From Oscillospiraceae bacterium (GTDB lineage: Bacteria; Bacillota; Clostridia; Oscillospirales; Oscillospiraceae): a stretch of 41,590 nt of DNA. How positions within the stretch are numbered: the stretch's first letter is position 1; every line of letters begins with the position of its first letter. The notes below the pieces were generated by a model. It did no database searches. It saw nothing but the letters and a program-made list of their open reading frames with translations, and was not told the DNA's origin. The stretch covers positions 1 to 41,590 of the forward strand of contig JAFTFT010000020.1 of NCBI GenBank assembly GCA_017458335.1, read 5' to 3'. The translations under genes and the position numbers were made by a program. Positions 20,108 to 33,035 of this stretch are shown in pieces.

Positions 20108-20152
20108 GGAAAAAAAGGAACGCCCGGATCAATCCCGGGCGTCCTGCTTTTT
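20103..20152. terminator. bidirectional terminator between hexokinase and gtrA
   Basis: AAGCAGGA (20103-20110) pairs with TCCTGCTT (20142-20149), and inside it CGCCCGG pairs with CCGGGCG; TTTTT follows on the plus strand. On the minus strand the inner stem is followed by a T run (20111-20117 complement) and the hairpin overlaps the last codons of gtrA. Confidence 0.7.
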
Positions 20153-20560
20153 GGCAAGGCTGTTGGTGTCGATGCTGTCGCGGAAGACAAAAAAACGGTC
20201 ATACAGGAATTCCAACACAAAGTTCAGAACCATATTGATTCCTGTGACAAGGTACTCATTCCAATGCAGGCCTTCTGCCAGCCAGTTGCCGAAAATCGTG
20301 CTGGCCGGGGTGAAGATCAGATAGAACAGGAACACCTTCGCCATGGCTACCGGCACATTATTTGCCGAGCGGAAGGTATAGCGGCGGTTCAGCGTGAAGT
20401 TCCAGAGTACGGACAGAACCAGCGCGATCAGGTAGCAGGGCCAGTAGGGCCAGCCCAGCGTCTCGTTCAGCAGGGCAAAGGAAACAAGCTCAATGATGCC
20501 GGCCGAAACGGAGAACAGGAGAAATTTCAGGGAGCGGAGCAGCTCGGCTCTTTTATCCAT
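20129..20560 (-). CDS. GtrA-family membrane protein
   Basis: 143 residues with four hydrophobic segments (~residues 10-30, 35-55, 75-95, 105-125) and the motif NFTLNRRYTFRS after the second, typical of GtrA. The family is thought to flip undecaprenyl-linked sugars for cell-surface glycans. No glycosyltransferase partner is adjacent. The start at 20560 has AGGAGG at 20567-20572 (6-bp spacing). An upstream in-frame ATG at 20593 lies inside the promoter spacer and cannot be the start if that promoter is used. Confidence 0.88.
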   Translation of the reverse strand: MDKRAELLRSLKFLLFSVSAGIIELVSFALLNETLGWPYWPCYLIALVLSVLWNFTLNRRYTFRSANNVPVAMAKVFLFYLIFTPASTIFGNWLAEGLHWNEYLVTGINMVLNFVLEFLYDRFFVFRDSIDTNSLAKKQDARD

Positions 20561-20584
20561 GGGAGCCTCCTCGATTTTTTTTGT

Positions 20585-20613
20585 ATTATCCATCGCATCC
20601 GAAAAAATGTCAA
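20585..20613 (-). promoter_or_regulatory. promoter of gtrA
   Basis: On the minus strand TTGACA (20608-20613), 17-bp spacer, GATAAT (20585-20590). The expected transcript begins near 20578, leaving a short leader with the ribosome site. Confidence 0.7.
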
Positions 20614-20714
20614 GTTTTTTGAAGCAATTTCAGTTCTGTTTTTGCAAGGAACGGCGATTTCGGCAAAACGCAATAAAATATTTTTGAACGAAATATGAAT
20701 ATTGGAGAAAATGC

Positions 20715-20743
20715 TTGACAGAGTTCACATAATGTGGTATTTT
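20715..20743 (+). promoter_or_regulatory. promoter of the structured RNA
   Basis: Consensus TTGACA (20715-20720), 17-bp spacer, TATTTT (20738-20743). No protein gene follows on this strand before the terminator at 20954. Confidence 0.75.
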
Positions 20744-20749
20744 AATTCA

Positions 20750-20985
20750 TGCGATGAGGGGCGTCACCCCTTGATGAGTCGGCATCTTAACCCGCTTTTG
20801 CATGGAAGATTTACTTGCAGGCCGCCGGGGCCAAATTCCGGCATGCTGTACGGGCAGCGACAGTCTGATAGCAATTCCCACTTTTGCGACATGACTAAAA
20901 ACCGACAACTTCACAGATAGCGATGTCCGGGACGTCGCTGCTCTGAACAAATTACCCGCTTCTTTCAGAAGCGGGTGTTTTCTTT
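20750..20985 (+). ncRNA. free-standing structured RNA of about 235 nt, class not assigned
   Basis: The stretch has its own promoter and a strong terminator, no convincing reading frame, and several nested pairings: CCCG (20791) and GCATG (20800) with CATGC (20842) and CGGG (20851); AGTC (20862) and GCAA (20871) with TTGC (20884) and GACT (20893); GTCGG (20778) with CCGAC (20902). GCGATG occurs at 20751 and 20920 and both can pair with CGTCGC (20933), so the closing helix and a local hairpin exclude each other. It sits between gtrA (divergent) and the 3' end of rodA, so it is not a leader of either. Size and phylum would suit the clostridial raiA-motif RNA, but I could not verify its consensus. 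6S, tmRNA, SRP and RNase P hallmarks were not seen. Confidence 0.72.
20954..20985 (+). terminator. intrinsic terminator of the structured RNA
   Basis: Perfect 9-bp stem ACCCGCTTC (20954-20962) with GAAGCGGGT (20968-20976), then GTTTTCTTT. Confidence 0.88.
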
Positions 20986-21014
20986 GCCCGGACTTTTTCC
21001 TGCCTGAGATGGCA

Positions 21015-21050
21015 GAAAAAACCTGCTTTCCGGGGAAAGGAAAGCAGGTT
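21015..21050 (-). terminator. terminator of the rodA-family gene
   Basis: Perfect 12-bp stem AACCTGCTTTCC (21020-21031) with GGAAAGCAGGTT (21039-21050); on the minus strand the stem is followed by TTTTTT. Confidence 0.85.
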
Positions 21051-21081
21051 CATTGAAACCCTGAAGCGGAGAGGCCTTCTC

Positions 21082-22203
21082 TCAGTAAATGGAGAAGAGC
21101 TGGGGCTTCAGTTTGAACTTTACGCCGGAAACAAGTCCCATGGCGGCAAACATACTCACCATGGATGAGCCCCCGTAACTGAAGAAGGGGAGCGTGATGC
21201 CGATGACCGGGGTGATGCCGATGCACATGCCGATGTTGATGAAGGTCTGGAATGCGACCGCAGAGCCGACGCCGATGCAGAGAAGCATATCGAAGGTACG
21301 CCCGGCCTTGAGGCCGACCCGGATGATATGGACCATCACGATCAGCAGAAGGGTGATCACCGCAATACAGCCGATCATGCCCAGCTCTTCTCCCACGCAG
21401 GAGAAAATAAAGTCGGTGTGCTTTCCGGTGAAGACCGTGGCGCGGTGCTCTGCGTCCACGCCGGTGAGCCGCCCGGAAGCGAGCGTCAGCTTGCTCTGGG
21501 TGGTCTGCCAGGTGATGCCCCATCCGTCCGGATCGATGGAGGGATCATACGGAGCGATCAGACGCTTCTTCTGATAATCCTTTAAAAAGTAGGTCCAGAG
21601 CAGGGGGATGGCCGCTGCCACCGCCGCTCCGCCCAGTGCGAACCAGTACAGCCGGACACCCAGCACAAAGAACATGGTCAGGAAGATCAGCAGCAGGATA
21701 GAGGCGCTTCCCAAGTCAGAGGAGACCACAACGATCAGACCGAACAGAATGACAAAGTGGCCGGCCATCTGTACAACCGACATAAAGGAATTGATATCAT
21801 GGTATTCCTTCAGCCAGGTCATTTGTTTCGCGGAGACGACAATGTAGATAACCTTGATGATCTCGGAAGGCTGAATACCGATACCGGCGAAACGGATCCA
21901 GCTGTTGTTGCCTGTGCCGCTGTCCGAACCGAAGAGAACCAAAGCGACCAGCAGAACGAGATTGATGCCGCAGAGCAGTTTCCACTGTTCTGCCAGCAGG
22001 TCTGCGTCGATAAACGTCAGCAGAACAAATGCACCCAGGCCGAGAAACAGGGAGAAGACCTGAACAATGACGCACTTGACCGAGCTGTCCACCCAGCCGG
22101 AAGCCTCCATGGCGATCGTGGCGATCCGGACCATGTAGATCCCGAACAGGGAACAGATCAGGCACATGATCAGCAGGAAAATATCTGCCCGCTCAAAAAA
22201 CAT
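21082..22203 (-). CDS. RodA/FtsW/SpoVE-family cell-wall polymerase
   Basis: 373 residues from the preferred start. About ten membrane segments. Family landmarks: SWIRFAGIGIQPSEIIKV, then GKHTDFIFSCVGEELGMIG (the HTDFIF...EELG signature) and GITLPFFSYGGSSM near the C-terminus. These proteins polymerise lipid II glycan chains with a partner class B penicillin-binding protein; no such partner is in the window. RodA rather than FtsW is favoured by the sequence between the landmarks, with moderate confidence. A longer frame begins at 22305, but that ATG lies at the expected transcription start of the upstream promoter and its extra 34 residues are built from two 20-bp DNA repeats, so ATG 22203 (MFFERADIFLL) is preferred. 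Neither start has a clear ribosome site. Confidence 0.85.
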   Translation of the reverse strand: MFFERADIFLLIMCLICSLFGIYMVRIATIAMEASGWVDSSVKCVIVQVFSLFLGLGAFVLLTFIDADLLAEQWKLLCGINLVLLVALVLFGSDSGTGNNSWIRFAGIGIQPSEIIKVIYIVVSAKQMTWLKEYHDINSFMSVVQMAGHFVILFGLIVVVSSDLGSASILLLIFLTMFFVLGVRLYWFALGGAAVAAAIPLLWTYFLKDYQKKRLIAPYDPSIDPDGWGITWQTTQSKLTLASGRLTGVDAEHRATVFTGKHTDFIFSCVGEELGMIGCIAVITLLLIVMVHIIRVGLKAGRTFDMLLCIGVGSAVAFQTFINIGMCIGITPVIGITLPFFSYGGSSMVSMFAAMGLVSGVKFKLKPQLFSIY

Positions 22204-22270
22204 GTGAGCATATACTTTGAACTTTTTGATTTTGCTGCACCGCCTTCCGGTGAATTGACATATCAAATCT

Positions 22271-22305
22271 GATAAGTTGAAACATAATCCGATAAGTTGA
22301 AACAT
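22271..22305. repeat. two direct repeats in the leader of the rodA-family gene
   Basis: GATAAGTTGAAACAT occurs at 22271-22285 and 22291-22305, exactly 20 bp apart, just downstream of the promoter of the minus-strand gene. This spacing places both copies on nearly the same DNA face, as for a regulator site. Confidence 0.6.
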
Positions 22306-26605: not shown

Positions 26606-26681
26606 CCGGGTGTAGCGCAGCTGGTAGCGCGCGTGGTTTGGGACCATGAGGCCGCAGGTTCGATCCCTGTCACTCGGACCA
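26606..26681 (+). tRNA. tRNA-Pro, anticodon TGG
   Basis: 76 nt including encoded CCA (26679-26681). The acceptor CCGGGTG pairs with CACTCGG with one G-U pair, the D arm is GCGC/GCGC, the anticodon arm is CGTGG with loop TTTGGGA and CCATG, and the T arm contains GGTTCGATCC. The loop gives anticodon TGG, which reads CCA/CCG-type proline codons. Confidence 0.95.
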
Positions 26682-26745: not shown

Positions 26746-27543
26746 TTACATCGGAACGATCTTGCAGAGGACGACGTAGCGGGCGTCGTCATATTCATAG
26801 CTGCAGGTAGAGAGCGTCATGATATGATCGCTGCTGGTAACCTGGACGCCGGAATCGAAATTGGAACGGGAGTACATACGGTTGATGAACTCCTGGAACT
26901 GGTCTCTGGTCGCGAAGTTGAACGCATAGACGTCCGAGTCGCCGCCAGTGACAAAGCAGGCGAACACCTGCAGCATGTAGACCTGATCCGGTGTGTAATA
27001 ATACAGAACAGGGTGCTGCTCAAGATAGCCTTCCTGCTTGTAATTGGCGAGACTGGCGAACATGGAGCCATTGTTCATGTGATGACCGTACAGAATCGTG
27101 TTGTCGCCCGAGAGGTCCGGCTCGCAGACCGCATCCATGAAGATGCTGCCGCTGGCGTTTTCGGTTCCGTTCAGCGTATGATGGAGGTAATACTCGTTGT
27201 CCCCGCCCTTCAGAACCGGATAGCTGATGACGGTATCCGGGCTGTAGATCCAGCCGACGACCTGAGAATTCTGGGAGAGCAGCGAATTGAAGTCAACCGA
27301 GATCGGACCGGACACAACCGGAGGTGTCTCTTCCACGACTTCAACGGTCGGAGTGGGGGTGGCTTCCGGTGTCGGCTGTGCGCTGACAAACTGCTGGTTC
27401 AGATTATCGTATTCCTTGGCCGCCGCGTGATAGCCGTAGAAGGTGTTATATAGCTGATACCCGGCGAAGATGAATACGCCGAGGAACACGCCGCAAAGTA
27501 TGACGAGAAGACCGCGCCAGAGGGCACGCAAAAAGGTTTTCAT
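26746..27543 (-). CDS. class B sortase
   Basis: 265 residues. N-terminal membrane anchor (residues ~8-30), a Thr/Pro linker (~58-75), then the sortase domain. The catalytic residues are visible: His154 in LYGHHMNNGSMF, Cys247 in TLSTCSYEY and Arg255 in DARYVV, the order and spacing of class B. Sortases cut a sorting motif at the outer membrane face and join the protein to peptidoglycan. The divergent gene encodes a surface protein with an APKTG motif, which resembles the [SNP]PxTG motifs cut by clostridial SrtB enzymes. A GGAGAC ribosome site precedes the ATG. Confidence 0.93.
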   Translation of the reverse strand: MKTFLRALWRGLLVILCGVFLGVFIFAGYQLYNTFYGYHAAAKEYDNLNQQFVSAQPTPEATPTPTVEVVEETPPVVSGPISVDFNSLLSQNSQVVGWIYSPDTVISYPVLKGGDNEYYLHHTLNGTENASGSIFMDAVCEPDLSGDNTILYGHHMNNGSMFASLANYKQEGYLEQHPVLYYYTPDQVYMLQVFACFVTGGDSDVYAFNFATRDQFQEFINRMYSRSNFDSGVQVTSSDHIMTLSTCSYEYDDARYVVLCKIVPM

Positions 27544-27740: not shown

Positions 27741-27809
27741 AACACTGTAAAAAAGAGCGATTTATAACCGTCCTGCAAAACGGTTCAACTGTTATCAGAG
27801 GTGATTGTT

Positions 27810-30800
27810 TTGAAAACAAAGCATAAAATGATCAGCGCCCTGCTGGCTGTGCTCCTCGTCTTTTCCCTGACCGGAGCTGCTGCTTCTGCAGACCCGGTCC
27901 CGGTTCCCGGCGACGCTGTGCTGAATGTTTCGGTCACGGTAGACCGGGACGAGTATGTTCCAGGGTCATATATCGACGGGGAGGGGAATGAGATCCCCTT
28001 AGATCCGGACAAGGTGCTCTCAGACGGAGAACAGATCCCTGTGTGCAGCGTGAGCTATGTGAGCAGGGACAATCAGGAAATCGGTTATGAAGACAGTCTG
28101 ATCAATCTCCTGGACCGCGACCGGCAGATCGGCATCCGGCTGACCCCGCTGGATGGCTTCTATATCTATGATATCGCACTGGTCGGCGGAGATTATGCTC
28201 CGAGTTCAAAAAGCCTGCTCTCCGCAGCAAAGGCAAAGCTCGGCACCACGACCGTCACGCTGTTCCTTTCGGACGTGGCCGGCCCGGAGGGCGGGAGCAT
28301 TACCATCAACGGCGACTATGTTTCCTCCTGGGGCGTCGGCAGCGATTGCACACTGAACGTCTCATGCCGGAGAATCAATGAGAATGTGCAGACCTATGTC
28401 AGCTATGACAGCGGCGAGCATTACGCAGAAACCCCGTGGGGCGAGGCTGGAAACGGTGCATGGATCTGTTACGCGGCCGACATGCCTCAGACCCTGGTCA
28501 CCGACGAGAGCGGCACCTGGCAGTTCACCGGATACAAGCTGGTGTATGATACAGGCGCTTATCAGGACATCGATGCACAGGATGAGATCCTGGTCTATAC
28601 GAATGCCACCCTGGTTGCCCAGTGGGAGAACGTCTCGGAGCAGTATCAGGGCGGCGGCACCGAAGGCGGTGACGACGATTACACCGATTACACCGTGAAC
28701 ACGGATGATTTCAATTACTCCGAGGGCGGAGACCTCGGCCTGGATACCGTGATGACCGCGTCCGCGCCGCTCACGCCGCCTGCCGCAATCGTGCAGGCGC
28801 CCGGCGCTCAGAAAGAATTTGACGGTTACCCACTGGAGATGGCCAAAGGATCGGATGTCACGGTCATCACCGATGAGAACGGCAATAATTTCAAGGTCGT
28901 GATCGACTACGCCGGCAACAGCATCACCGGGATCGGCTCAGTAGAGAACGCGGTCACTTCTTATGCCATTTACGACATGAACGATACCCTGCTGTTTGAC
29001 CGGGAGGATCTCGACGCTTTCGGCGGCTTCCGCGCGCTGAACGGCAGCCTGACTGTGACCGAGCCAAGCTATAAGCAGTATCTCACCGTTCGCGGCGTAT
29101 CCGCGACCGTAGATGCCGTGAGCGAAGACCAGATGTTCTACGCTGCCGATCTGGGAGCAGAGCAGGGGTACACCGACGGCTATGCGGCCGAAGGCCTTCT
29201 GCCCGGACACTGGATCTCAGGGACGGACATCGTCACCGGTTCCGGCAGCACGGATTTTGACACCGTGGTGAATGCCGAGGCGGTCCATATCTACATGAAC
29301 AATGGGATTGAGAACGTGGATGTCACCGCGCTCTATGATGTGCATGCCGAAAACGGTCATGTCACGGTGAATGCTTTCGTCCCGGCTCCGACACCGGTGA
29401 TCCCGGCTGTGACCGTTGAGGCGCCCAGCGCCAGCAAGCCGTTTGACGGCACTCCGCTCACGATGGATCCGGGGACGGATGTGACCGTGGTCAACGATGA
29501 GCAGGGCCTTACCTACAGGATCGTGCTCAGTTATGCCGGCGGCAGCAGAACAGAGATCGGCTCCATTGACAATGAAGTCACTTCCTGCGTGATCAACGAC
29601 GGGAATGACGTGCCGCTGTTCAGCTGGGAAGAGCTTCAGGCTGCGCCGCAGTTCCGCGTACAGAACGGTACGCTGACCGTGGCTGATCCCGCTGAAAAGC
29701 AGACACTGGTTGTTACCGGCATCACTGCCAATGTGACAGTCAAGGCGGCGGATCAGACGGTCACGCTGGCTGACTGCAGCGCCGAAGGCTTTTCCGGCGG
29801 CTATCGGGTTACCGGCCTGTTCGACGGCCACCGCGTGGTGGGAGAGAACATCGTCAGCGGGCAGGGAACTGCCCCCGGATTCGACACCGTGGTGAACGCG
29901 GAGGCAATTTCGGTTTACAGTGGAGACACGGACGTAACTGCCCTCTATAACATTACGCCGGTCAACGGTTATGTTACCGTCACGGTCGAGACGCCCGAAC
30001 CCTCCACAGAGCCGACCACCTCTCCGGAGCCGAGCACGGAACCGACCACCTCACCGGAACCGGAAAAACCGACGGTGCCCAACCTCACGCTGCGCGGCCT
30101 CGACGCCAGCAAGGAATTCGACGGCACACCGCTGACCATGCAGGGAGATAAGGGATATCTGCTCTCCGGTACGATCGGCGAATACAGCATCGCCGTCACT
30201 TATAACTCGATTACGGAAATCGGCAGCATGCCTGCCATCAGTAGTTATGAACTCCGGGATGCCCAGGGCAATACCGTGTTCACCAAAGCCGAGCTGGATG
30301 CCAGCGACAACTTTACGGTGGAGAGCCTCGGCACGCTGACCATCACCAAGCCGGAACCCACGATCCCGAAGGCGCGCCTGACGGTTCAGCCGCTGACCAA
30401 GGAATATGACGGCACACCGCTGACCAGAGAGAACAACGGAAACGTCGAAGTTACCGACAATCTCGGCGAGTACAGGCTCCGTGTGGAATACAACTCCATC
30501 ACCGAGCCCGGCAAGGTAGAGGCCCTGTCGAACTATGAACTCGTTGACGGGAGCGGAAACGTTGTCTTCACCAAGGCACAGCTGGATGCCAGCCCGAACT
30601 TCACTGTCAACAACGGCCTTCTGACCGTCAACCCGCGCACCCTGAAACTGATCGCCATCTCCGGCATGCTGAACACCAAGGGTGAGAACATCACAGCCTC
30701 CAGCCTGAGCACGCCGGACGGCAGCTTCACCAACGGCTATCGTCAGATCGGCCTGCTGGAGGGCCACCAGCTCTCGGGCAGCTTTGTCCAGGGCAGCGGA

Positions 30801-33035
30801 AAAGAGAGCTTCAAGACCAGCATCGATCCGGAAGCGGTCCGCATTACGTCGGGCGGCTGGGATGTGACCAAGTATTATGACATCCAGACCCAGGACGGCT
30901 TTATCACGATCAACGCCCCTACCGCCTATGACCTGATTGTCAATCCGCGCTCCTACACCTGGACCTATGACGGAACCGCGCACTCGATGCGGGAGTATGA
31001 TTACAGTGGTCTGGTCAACGGCGACAAGCTCGTCAAGGTCAACTTCAGCAACGAAGCCACCATCACGAATGTCGGCACCCAGTCGAACCGCATTACCTCC
31101 GTCGAGGTGACCACGGCCACCGGCGGGGATGTGGACGTGAACAAGTATGTTCTCATCTCCACGCCGGGAACCCTGACGGTGGAGCAGCGTGACCTGACCG
31201 TGACGGCCATCTCCGGCTCGCTGACCACGAACGGAACCGAGGTGGTGGCATCCAGTCTGAGCACACCGGACGGAACCTTCAAGAGCGGCTTCAAAGCCGA
31301 AGGTCTGGTCCCCGGACACGCCCTCACCGGCAGCTTCGTTGCCGGCCGCGGCACCACCACCTTCAACACCAGCATTGACCTGAACAACCTGCGTGTTGTC
31401 GATGCTTACGGGAACGATGTGACACGCAACTACAGCATCCGCACCGTAAACGGCACCATCACCATCAACGCCGGTTCTTCGACCCAGCAGCGGAGCAGTG
31501 TCTCCCTGTCCATCACGGCCAAGTCCGGCACCTTCCCCTATGACGGAACGGAGCACAAGCTCAACGAGTACACCGCCAGCGGCCTGGTGGACGGCGATGT
31601 GATCGAGAAGGTTACCTTCAAGCCTTCTTCCGTGATCACCGATGTGGGAACCCGCGCCAACGAGATCCAGTCCGTGGTCATCAAGTCTTCCACCGGAGCG
31701 GCCGTGGACAACAGCAAGTACAACATCAACTATTACTCCGGCACGCTCACCGTAACAAAGTTCCCGCTGACGCTGACGGCTGTTTCGGACGAGAAGGTCT
31801 ATGACGGGAAAGCCCTGAACAACAAGAGCGTGAAGGCCACCGCTCTGGCAAATTCCAATCACACGCTCAGTGCGGACTACGAGGTCTTTGACAGCAACGG
31901 CAACTCCATCAAGAACGGCCCGGTCGATCCCGGCGTCTACACCAAGAAGGTCAGCAACGTCAAGATCACCTCCGGCAACACCGATGTCACGGCAAACTAC
32001 GACATCACGATGGTCGACGGCACGCTCAAGATCACCGGCTCCTCCGGCGAGAGCAGCCGTGCAACCACCACCACCGCTTACTACGGCAACACATTTACCA
32101 TCCGCTCAGACGCTCCATACTCCGAGTTCAAGTATCTGCTGATTGACGGACAGAAAGTCCCCACGGACAACTATACCGTCAAGGAAGGCAGCACCATTAT
32201 CACGCTGAAGTCCTCCTACATCCAGAGCCTGAAGGCGGGCGGACACAACTACACCATCGTCTCCACATCCAAGCAGGTCGACGGTAGCTTCAATGTTTCC
32301 AAGGCACCCAAGACCGGAGACGGCGCTTCGATGATTGTCTGGATCATCCTGCTCCTGCTGGCTGCCGTGGCCGTTGCCCTCGTGTTCTTCTTCCTGCAGC
32401 GCTCCGGCAGGCTGGGCGGCAAGCGCCAGTCCGGCAGAAAGAACGGAGGAAGCAACAGGAAAGAGACTCTCCGCTATCCCTCCGGAAAGGAATACACCCG
32501 CAAGCCGGCAACCCCGGTGATCCCTGATCTGGACTTTGAGCCCGAACCGGAACCGGTTCAGGACGACGATCCGACCATGGATCTGATGAAGGATTTCAAC
32601 CTCAATCTGGACGACTTCCGGAATCCGGAACCGCAGACGCCGCCAACTTACAACGGATACAGTGCTGACGGATACACAGGTAACACCGTGAGCGGCAGCG
32701 GCAAAACCGGTTTTGAAGCGCCGGACTTCGGCAGCTTCGATCAGCCGGCCGCAGCGCCGGAAGAAGAGCTCCCGGATCTCGAGGTAGAGGTCTATGAGGA
32801 GGAGCCGGAAGTACAGCCGACCGCTGAAGCGGAAGCACAGCCCATCGAAGAGCCTGCAGAGGTTCCAATCGAAGCGGCAGCGGAAGAGCCTGCTCCGGAA
32901 GTGGAACCCGAGCCGGTGAAAGCACCGGAACCGCCGCGCCGCCGCGGAAAGCATGAGGCGCCGGACCCCTCCGATCCGTTCACGGACAGCTGGTATCAGT
33001 CCGTCGGACTGGGCAAGAGGGATAAGAACAAGTAA
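27810..33035 (+). CDS. giant surface protein with MBG-type repeats, APKTG motif and a long cytoplasmic tail
   Basis: 1741 residues from a TTG start (GAGGTG at 27798-27803, 6-bp spacing). A signal peptide (residues 1-28) leads into ~300 residues of unique extracellular sequence. Then come repeated MBG-like beta domains marked by FDGTPLTM or YDGT: ~330, 537, 768, 864, 1050, 1240 and 1329, alternating with modules containing SLSTPDG (~950, ~1135). A TEPTTSPEPSTEPTTSPEP linker lies near 730. APKTGD begins at ~1499, a membrane segment spans ~1508-1530, and an acidic Pro/Glu-rich tail of about 212 residues ends in KRDKNK. Classical sortase substrates have tails of only a few residues. A strong terminator follows. 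Function is unknown; adhesion or surface sensing would fit. Confidence 0.88.
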   Translation: MKTKHKMISALLAVLLVFSLTGAAASADPVPVPGDAVLNVSVTVDRDEYVPGSYIDGEGNEIPLDPDKVLSDGEQIPVCSVSYVSRDNQEIGYEDSLINLLDRDRQIGIRLTPLDGFYIYDIALVGGDYAPSSKSLLSAAKAKLGTTTVTLFLSDVAGPEGGSITINGDYVSSWGVGSDCTLNVSCRRINENVQTYVSYDSGEHYAETPWGEAGNGAWICYAADMPQTLVTDESGTWQFTGYKLVYDTGAYQDIDAQDEILVYTNATLVAQWENVSEQYQGGGTEGGDDDYTDYTVNTDDFNYSEGGDLGLDTVMTASAPLTPPAAIVQAPGAQKEFDGYPLEMAKGSDVTVITDENGNNFKVVIDYAGNSITGIGSVENAVTSYAIYDMNDTLLFDREDLDAFGGFRALNGSLTVTEPSYKQYLTVRGVSATVDAVSEDQMFYAADLGAEQGYTDGYAAEGLLPGHWISGTDIVTGSGSTDFDTVVNAEAVHIYMNNGIENVDVTALYDVHAENGHVTVNAFVPAPTPVIPAVTVEAPSASKPFDGTPLTMDPGTDVTVVNDEQGLTYRIVLSYAGGSRTEIGSIDNEVTSCVINDGNDVPLFSWEELQAAPQFRVQNGTLTVADPAEKQTLVVTGITANVTVKAADQTVTLADCSAEGFSGGYRVTGLFDGHRVVGENIVSGQGTAPGFDTVVNAEAISVYSGDTDVTALYNITPVNGYVTVTVETPEPSTEPTTSPEPSTEPTTSPEPEKPTVPNLTLRGLDASKEFDGTPLTMQGDKGYLLSGTIGEYSIAVTYNSITEIGSMPAISSYELRDAQGNTVFTKAELDASDNFTVESLGTLTITKPEPTIPKARLTVQPLTKEYDGTPLTRENNGNVEVTDNLGEYRLRVEYNSITEPGKVEALSNYELVDGSGNVVFTKAQLDASPNFTVNNGLLTVNPRTLKLIAISGMLNTKGENITASSLSTPDGSFTNGYRQIGLLEGHQLSGSFVQGSGKESFKTSIDPEAVRITSGGWDVTKYYDIQTQDGFITINAPTAYDLIVNPRSYTWTYDGTAHSMREYDYSGLVNGDKLVKVNFSNEATITNVGTQSNRITSVEVTTATGGDVDVNKYVLISTPGTLTVEQRDLTVTAISGSLTTNGTEVVASSLSTPDGTFKSGFKAEGLVPGHALTGSFVAGRGTTTFNTSIDLNNLRVVDAYGNDVTRNYSIRTVNGTITINAGSSTQQRSSVSLSITAKSGTFPYDGTEHKLNEYTASGLVDGDVIEKVTFKPSSVITDVGTRANEIQSVVIKSSTGAAVDNSKYNINYYSGTLTVTKFPLTLTAVSDEKVYDGKALNNKSVKATALANSNHTLSADYEVFDSNGNSIKNGPVDPGVYTKKVSNVKITSGNTDVTANYDITMVDGTLKITGSSGESSRATTTTAYYGNTFTIRSDAPYSEFKYLLIDGQKVPTDNYTVKEGSTIITLKSSYIQSLKAGGHNYTIVSTSKQVDGSFNVSKAPKTGDGASMIVWIILLLLAAVAVALVFFFLQRSGRLGGKRQSGRKNGGSNRKETLRYPSGKEYTRKPATPVIPDLDFEPEPEPVQDDDPTMDLMKDFNLNLDDFRNPEPQTPPTYNGYSADGYTGNTVSGSGKTGFEAPDFGSFDQPAAAPEEELPDLEVEVYEEEPEVQPTAEAEAQPIEEPAEVPIEAAAEEPAPEVEPEPVKAPEPPRRRGKHEAPDPSDPFTDSWYQSVGLGKRDKNK

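Follow-up and report, generated by a model that had tools for sequence, protein, structure and literature searches.

Stand-alone structured RNAs to which no function has been assigned are a standing puzzle in bacterial biology. A well-known RNA of comparable outline is 6S RNA, which is small and free-standing with a length of about 200 nt, is present as two paralogs in some bacteria, and consists of one long bulged hairpin. An example of a stand-alone structured RNA whose function is unsettled is raiA (RF03072), which the part of PMC11751092 that we draw on describes as free-standing, compact and about 200 nt long, with a P1 helix as part of its fold, two pseudoknots that both meet in one pk-loop, and a proposed but unsettled role as a ribozyme.

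Here we analyzed a small RNA gene of a gut bacterium that probably encodes a new non-coding RNA. The gene lies in a stretch of 41,590 nt from an Oscillospiraceae bacterium (contig JAFTFT010000020.1), referred to below as the window. Its product is predicted to resemble 6S RNA in being free-standing, about 200 nt long and present as paralog pairs in some bacteria, but a row of short hairpins with pseudoknots takes the place of the single bulged hairpin, and no match to 6S was found at the RNA with Rfam, either at gathering scores or at E up to 10. The likeness to raiA, as described in that part of PMC11751092, extends to the free-standing gene, the length of about 200 nt, the compactness, the two pseudoknots and the unsettled function. 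However, in contrast to the shared pk-loop of raiA, each pseudoknot of the RNA described here would pair the loop of a hairpin with a separate strand of its own, and our predictions of nested secondary structure showed no end-to-end helix.

The locus and known RNA families

The RNA gene is flanked by gtrA (20129-20593) and rodA (21082-22305), both of which were identified by Pfam. Since these genes are both on the minus strand, the RNA, on the plus strand, leads no gene. All RNA features below are on the plus strand. A sigma-70-type promoter with 10 of 12 consensus matches occupies 20715-20743 and comprises a -35 TTGACA (20715-20720), a spacer of 17, an extended TGTGG (20733-20737) and a -10 TATTTT (20738-20743). 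An intrinsic terminator follows at 20953-20985, made up of a stem-loop (20953-20977) with a stem of 11 pairs and a run of T residues. These features agree with a first-pass annotation of the window, which had read the region as a stretch of about 235 nt between gtrA and rodA with a promoter and a terminator of its own and no gene to lead. Based on these DNA signals, RNA polymerase would start at ~20750, as placed from the -10 position, and stop at ~20985, as placed from the terminator, to give a predicted RNA of about 236 nt (20750-20985). The predicted fold of this interval has an energy of -83.7 kcal/mol (z -2.85), and one of 200 shuffled sequences was equally stable. The first 159 nt or so form the conserved core (20750-20908), which is the portion matched by the covariance models R1 and R2 introduced below.

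The same annotation held that the well-known RNAs do not fit, and Rfam searches bear this out in the copies that were searched. At gathering scores the only Rfam match in the window is a tRNA, located elsewhere than the RNA. With the limit relaxed to E 10 for positions 20600-21100, no family reached its cut-off. The best score was that of the suhB/mmgR sRNA (RF00519; 25.9 bits against a cut-off of 41), whose match at 20918-20991 takes in the 3′ hairpin and terminator only and lies outside the conserved core. Most of the other sub-threshold hits also overlap the 3′ hairpin and terminator, while sR55 (12.1 bits) falls in the core. Five further copies from the genus (L087, L095, L103, L112 and L137) had no Rfam 15 family at gathering score, and among the hits listed for three distant copies (L202, L209 and L210; E up to 5), none overlaps the RNA or attains its family's cut-off. 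Because Rfam 15 contains no matching model, Rfam annotation passes over this RNA. The main text of PMC11109978 has no mention of Oscillospir-, Ruminococc- or raiA. As far as Rfam 15 and the literature searched tell, the RNA looks like a family of its own.

A small protein gene was considered and rejected. The frame of a 72-aa ORF in the window is open through the core in three of the eight copies located between gtrA and rodA, the window's included. In 34 of 63 copies every frame is interrupted within the core, and the distances between conserved anchors are spread over all three frames. Conservation limited to a reading frame had been named in advance as the observation that would count against a non-coding RNA; what we found is that the frame is not kept and the helices are.

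Fold of the conserved core

The fold was assessed chiefly on a MAFFT alignment of 52 of the 63 cores from the genus, which was not fitted to the structure. It leaves out near-duplicates (L099, L100, L106, L117, L126, L132 and L133) and deviating copies (L134, L135, L136 and L139). Unless stated otherwise, the percentages below refer to this alignment. Two hand-picked sets of 16 and 17 sequences (A5 and A6) were also used, neither of which includes L210, which is nearly identical to L209. In the 52 copies the 37 named pairs are 96.0% paired, compared with 30-48% when the structure is slid by 1 to 3 columns. Covariation in related regions had been proposed as a check on the first-pass annotation, and it came out in favor of the helices: 18 of the 37 pairs have changed on both sides compared to 6.9 in shuffles, and none of 500 shuffles reached 18, with the caveat that double changes are counted as sequences rather than independent events and that the structure was written after the same sequences had been viewed. 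The helices are kept by the relatives through compensatory changes, more than expected by chance.

The core would fold into a row of hairpins that is locked by two loop-to-strand pseudoknots. Hairpin H1 (20756-20761 with 20767-20772, loop CGUCA) is 99.0% paired with four of its six pairs doubly changed, and it is followed directly by H2 (GAUG 20773-20776 with CAUC 20783-20786), which is 100% paired with two of four pairs doubly changed. H3 (GCAUG 20800-20804 with CUUGC 20814-20818; 89.6% paired) has a U-U mismatch in the window's copy. In H4 (GCCGG 20824-20828 with CCGGC 20838-20842; 92.2% paired), four of five pairs are doubly changed. A third pairing candidate (87.5% paired) links GGCC at 20820-20823 with GGCC at 20829-20832 and may form in place of H4. 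H5 (GCUG 20845-20848 with CAGC 20855-20858) is 100% paired and has three of four pairs doubly changed. The last hairpin, H6 (AGUC 20862-20865 with GACU 20893-20896), is variable and was 97.5% paired in 10 sequences; three short forms of 104-127 nt (L137, L138 and L140) are without it.

Pseudoknot 1 would pair GUCGG in the loop of H2 (20778-20782) with CCGAC at the 3′ end of the core (20902-20906), as seen in both the 52-copy alignment and A6. In the 17 hand-picked sequences of A6, which include the distant copies L202 and L209, all 85 cells are paired and four of the five pairs are doubly changed, the columns there having been chosen as the best-scoring of several offsets (85 cells paired, against 36 for the runner-up). 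The letters vary: most copies other than the window's have AUCGG with CCGAU or CCGGU, L140 and L202 have ACCGG/CCGGU, and L209 has UAACUGA/UCAGUUA, so that the pseudoknot is re-formed in the distant copies L202 and L209/L210. Pseudoknot 2 would join CCCG (20791-20794) of UUAACCCG, the AACCCG strand, to CGGG in the loop of H5 (20851-20854). It is 100% paired with one of four pairs doubly changed, a change made up of two cells from the close relatives L122 and L127 (CCUG/CAGG). In L202 and L209 a UCCG/CGGA counterpart was found by eye, and its letters were confirmed to be complementary. Overall, covariation supports pseudoknot 1 strongly and pseudoknot 2 more thinly.

The portion of the RNA around pseudoknot 2 forms a module (strand, hairpin, GUYG-loop-CRAC, AGAAAA) that, as read by eye, occurs twice in tandem in L202 and L209. 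In L202 (1499-1655), as read by eye, CAGG in the first module's loop fits CCUG in the second module's strand, and UCCG in the first strand fits CGGA in the second loop. It is as if the two modules exchange partners.

Occurrence, paralogs and descent

At the DNA level, a search of the genus (102 genomes) found seven clear relatives beside gtrA and rodA and a few distant ones elsewhere, and a DNA similarity search of 200 genomes of the family (E up to 1) returned, besides the window, only short matches of at most 37 bases. Covariance models extended this range. Model R1, built from 10 cores, matched 50 of the 102 genus genomes at E<=0.01, and R2, built from 52 cores, matched 49 at E<=0.001 with a total of 63 copies. 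The remaining 53 genomes were without a match to R2. Of the 34 genomes with a completeness of 90% or more, 20 are in this group, which indicates that the RNA is not needed by the whole genus. Three weak model hits (L141, L142 and L143) were not counted, as R2 was silent on them at E up to 1.

R1 had six matches among 400 genomes of the family, namely the window's own genome, three of the same genus and two weak ones that were not accepted. Among 394 genomes of the order, R2 found the own genome and a single genome from a different family (G657, copy L202; E 6e-6), which was also the sole match among 118 genomes of that family. Of 311 genomes of the class, five were matched by a third model that includes L202 (R3). 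One was the own genome, and two from a single genus of another order carry L209 and L210 (E about 5e-7). The remaining two matches, L211 and L212, were weak and were not counted, their per-genome E values being 0.001 and 0.0095 in a search of all 311. A sequence pattern tuned to the genus found 58 stretches in a collection of 84,980 species, all of them titled as Oscillospiraceae, Ruminococcaceae, Clostridiales, Eubacteriales or Clostridia bacteria; as this pattern misses forms like L202 or L209, it is no test of a wider range. Those isolate names among the 58 that bear a source point to ruminants.

A mobile or phage origin was also considered and rejected. Searches by blastn found no match to the window's RNA in phage or plasmid records and none to the copy of L243 in plasmids, and two exact patterns, one tuned to the genus and one to L209, had no match in viral contigs.

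The 63 copies from the genus fall into two groups. A midpoint-rooted tree has sides of 22 and 41 copies with printed supports of 0.88 and 0.97, and the types differ in anatomy: the terminator is mostly right behind the core in type II and mostly ~70-90 nt further on in type I. One copy of each type was present in 12 of 13 multi-copy genomes when L088 is counted as type II in keeping with the tree, or in 11 of 13 by our first labels. In one genome (G259, locus L090) the two types lie ~300 nt apart in the same direction. These are two paralogous versions that many genomes retain as a pair, perhaps each regulated differently. The window's copy is in the eight-member gtrA-rodA group on the type II side of the tree, where the inner nodes have low support (0.46-0.48). 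In the eight genomes with the RNA at that location gtrA adjoins rodA, compared to none of 22 other rodA loci (viewed over ~1.5 kb of flank, or as far as the contig reached).

To follow descent we mapped RNA presence onto a tree of RodA from 86 genomes. At E 1e-60, RodA was matched in 87 of the 102 genomes and not in the other 15, and of the 87 one fragment (G258) was left out. The mapping required 12 changes, whereas 500 label shuffles averaged 28.7 and never went below 21. The clustering of RNA presence on the RodA tree points to mostly vertical descent of the RNA. Incomplete genomes may inflate the loss counts.

Gene anatomy and candidate functions

We examined the surroundings of 66 copies, these being the 63 from the genus together with L202, L209 and L210, the last three read from L208, L243 and L244. 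A promoter (at least 9 of 12 matches, all with a spacer of 17) lies just 5′ of the core in 61 of the 66, compared to 5 of 264 control windows; the copies that the rule missed are L104, L137, L202, L209 and L210. Under a loose rule, a terminator-like site lies within ~125 nt 3′ of the core in 60 of the 66, compared to 73 of 264 control windows, and L096, L099, L100, L137, L209 and L210 were missed. A stricter first scan, in which the -10 had to end in T and bulges were disallowed, found promoters in 35 and terminators in 45 of the 66 copies, with 1.4% and 10.8% of 1320 control windows scoring. As the rules were changed after type II copies had been viewed, the second counts are partly post hoc, and the control windows were rescored by the same new rules. 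The relatives, then, keep a promoter and a terminator of their own, as is characteristic of a small RNA gene, and with the compensatory changes in the helices this sustains the initial description of the locus as a stand-alone structured RNA.

Many copies also have an AT-rich TTYACA box upstream of the -35. The box reads TTTACAAAAA..TTC in type II copies or TTYACAATTTGTTC in many type I copies and is located ~15-20 nt before the -35 TTGACA. It is perhaps an UP element or the site of a regulator.

The neighbors of the RNA differ between loci, and the most widely shared neighbor cluster, that of a 67-aa ORF, covers 12 of the 66 copies. These calls were made with a home-made gene caller, which replaced a cruder first choice of ORFs and which, having been trained on the genus, is poor for L202, L209 and L210. 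A conserved ORF of ~67 aa that ends in YRRYF was noted near 15 type II loci with otherwise different surroundings (L102, L103, L108, L109, L110, L114, L116, L117, L119, L121, L122, L123, L125, L126 and L127). Neither Pfam nor NCBIfam matched it below E 0.05, and it could be a partner of the RNA or a case of old synteny.

We hypothesize, with a probability of about one half, that the RNA represents a new family, that of a structured RNA which is free-standing, acts in trans and perhaps binds protein. Action in trans is suggested because no gene is kept beside the RNA. The most likely mode, judging from how compact and conserved the fold is and from the absence of a conserved neighbor, would be that of a compact protein-binding RNA which acts either within a ribonucleoprotein or by titrating a regulatory protein. 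More tentatively, and at somewhat less than even odds, the RNA may define a new pseudoknot-locked class that is older than its order, with a fixed 5′ domain (H1 and H2), a strand-plus-loop module that can be duplicated, two paralogs in ruminant-gut Oscillospiraceae, and a job that is that of no known RNA class, such as a new ribonucleoprotein or RNA catalyst. With a fold backed by covariation, two conserved paralogs and a fixed promoter, the RNA is a well-defined target for further study.

A regulatory small RNA that acts by base pairing is a less probable alternative. The folded core would then protect the molecule while an exposed loop (CGNCA of H1 or UUUAC of H3) pairs with mRNAs. The free-standing gene with its promoter and terminator is consistent with this, as is the conservation of unpaired loop letters, and some of the conserved unpaired stretches could indeed pair with other RNAs. 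However, the conserved loops of H2 and H5 would be occupied by the intramolecular pseudoknots, and it is the whole fold that is conserved rather than a short seed.

Slightly less probable again is a ribozyme, or an RNA that senses a metabolite without an attached gene, along the lines suggested for raiA (PMC11751092, in the part cited above). Such a role would suit a compact, pseudoknotted RNA with conserved unpaired letters and a module that appears by eye to be duplicated in L202 and L209. Against it, Rfam searches of the copies named above put no ribozyme or riboswitch family over its cut-off at the RNA, and since the terminator is outside the core no expression platform is visible.

We regard it as very unlikely that the RNA is a cis-acting leader or riboswitch that has lost its gene in this genome. 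The next downstream gene is on the same strand in 30 of the 66 copies, and one of two genes called downstream of the RNA at six loci is a gene that we take, from its sequence, to be DJ-1-like. Yet in 34 copies the downstream gene is on the opposite strand (it was not found in the other two), most cores have the terminator-like site noted above within ~125 nt, and the downstream genes themselves differ from locus to locus, which argues that the RNA is no leader.

A switch between two folds is, in our view, slightly more improbable still. The first-pass annotation had pointed out that GCGATG is present twice in the window (20751 and 20920), that both copies can pair with the CGTCGC at 20933, and that two alternative folds might result. 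The letters are as it described, and both copies are complementary to CGTCGC, but the two folds found no support. Among the aligned copies the 5′ GCGATG is restricted to the gtrA-rodA group, and one copy (L035) retains its letters while the 3′ match for them is gone, on which ground we rejected alternative folding through this motif. The 3′ GCGATG and CGTCGC instead form an extra local hairpin (GCGAUG/CGUCGC, 20920-20938) in the gtrA-rodA copies, the two sides of which change together in the eight copies as read by eye.

Least likely of all is a diverged raiA RNA, which had been put forward as a possible match in size and phylum only and which the similar size, free-standing gene, two pseudoknots and same broad bacterial group would favor: RF03072 was absent from the matches up to E 10 at 20600-21100, from the search of the own genome (in which control genomes gave no match either) and from the matches listed for L202, L209 and L210 (E up to 5), it was found in none of 147 genomes of the order (an absence only weakly shown, because the 14 control genomes gave none either), and the order of pairing appears to differ from that in the part of PMC11751092 cited above. 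As the raiA model had no match and the pseudoknots appear to be arranged otherwise, we did not file the RNA as raiA.

Other features of the window were noted in passing. A strong hairpin at 20118-20144, between a hexokinase gene and the convergent gtrA, scores as a terminator on both strands. Further along are a tRNA-Pro (26606-26681) and a sortase gene (26746-27543, minus strand), and beyond these an ORF of 1744 aa (27801-33035) without a Pfam match, which perhaps encodes a large surface protein.
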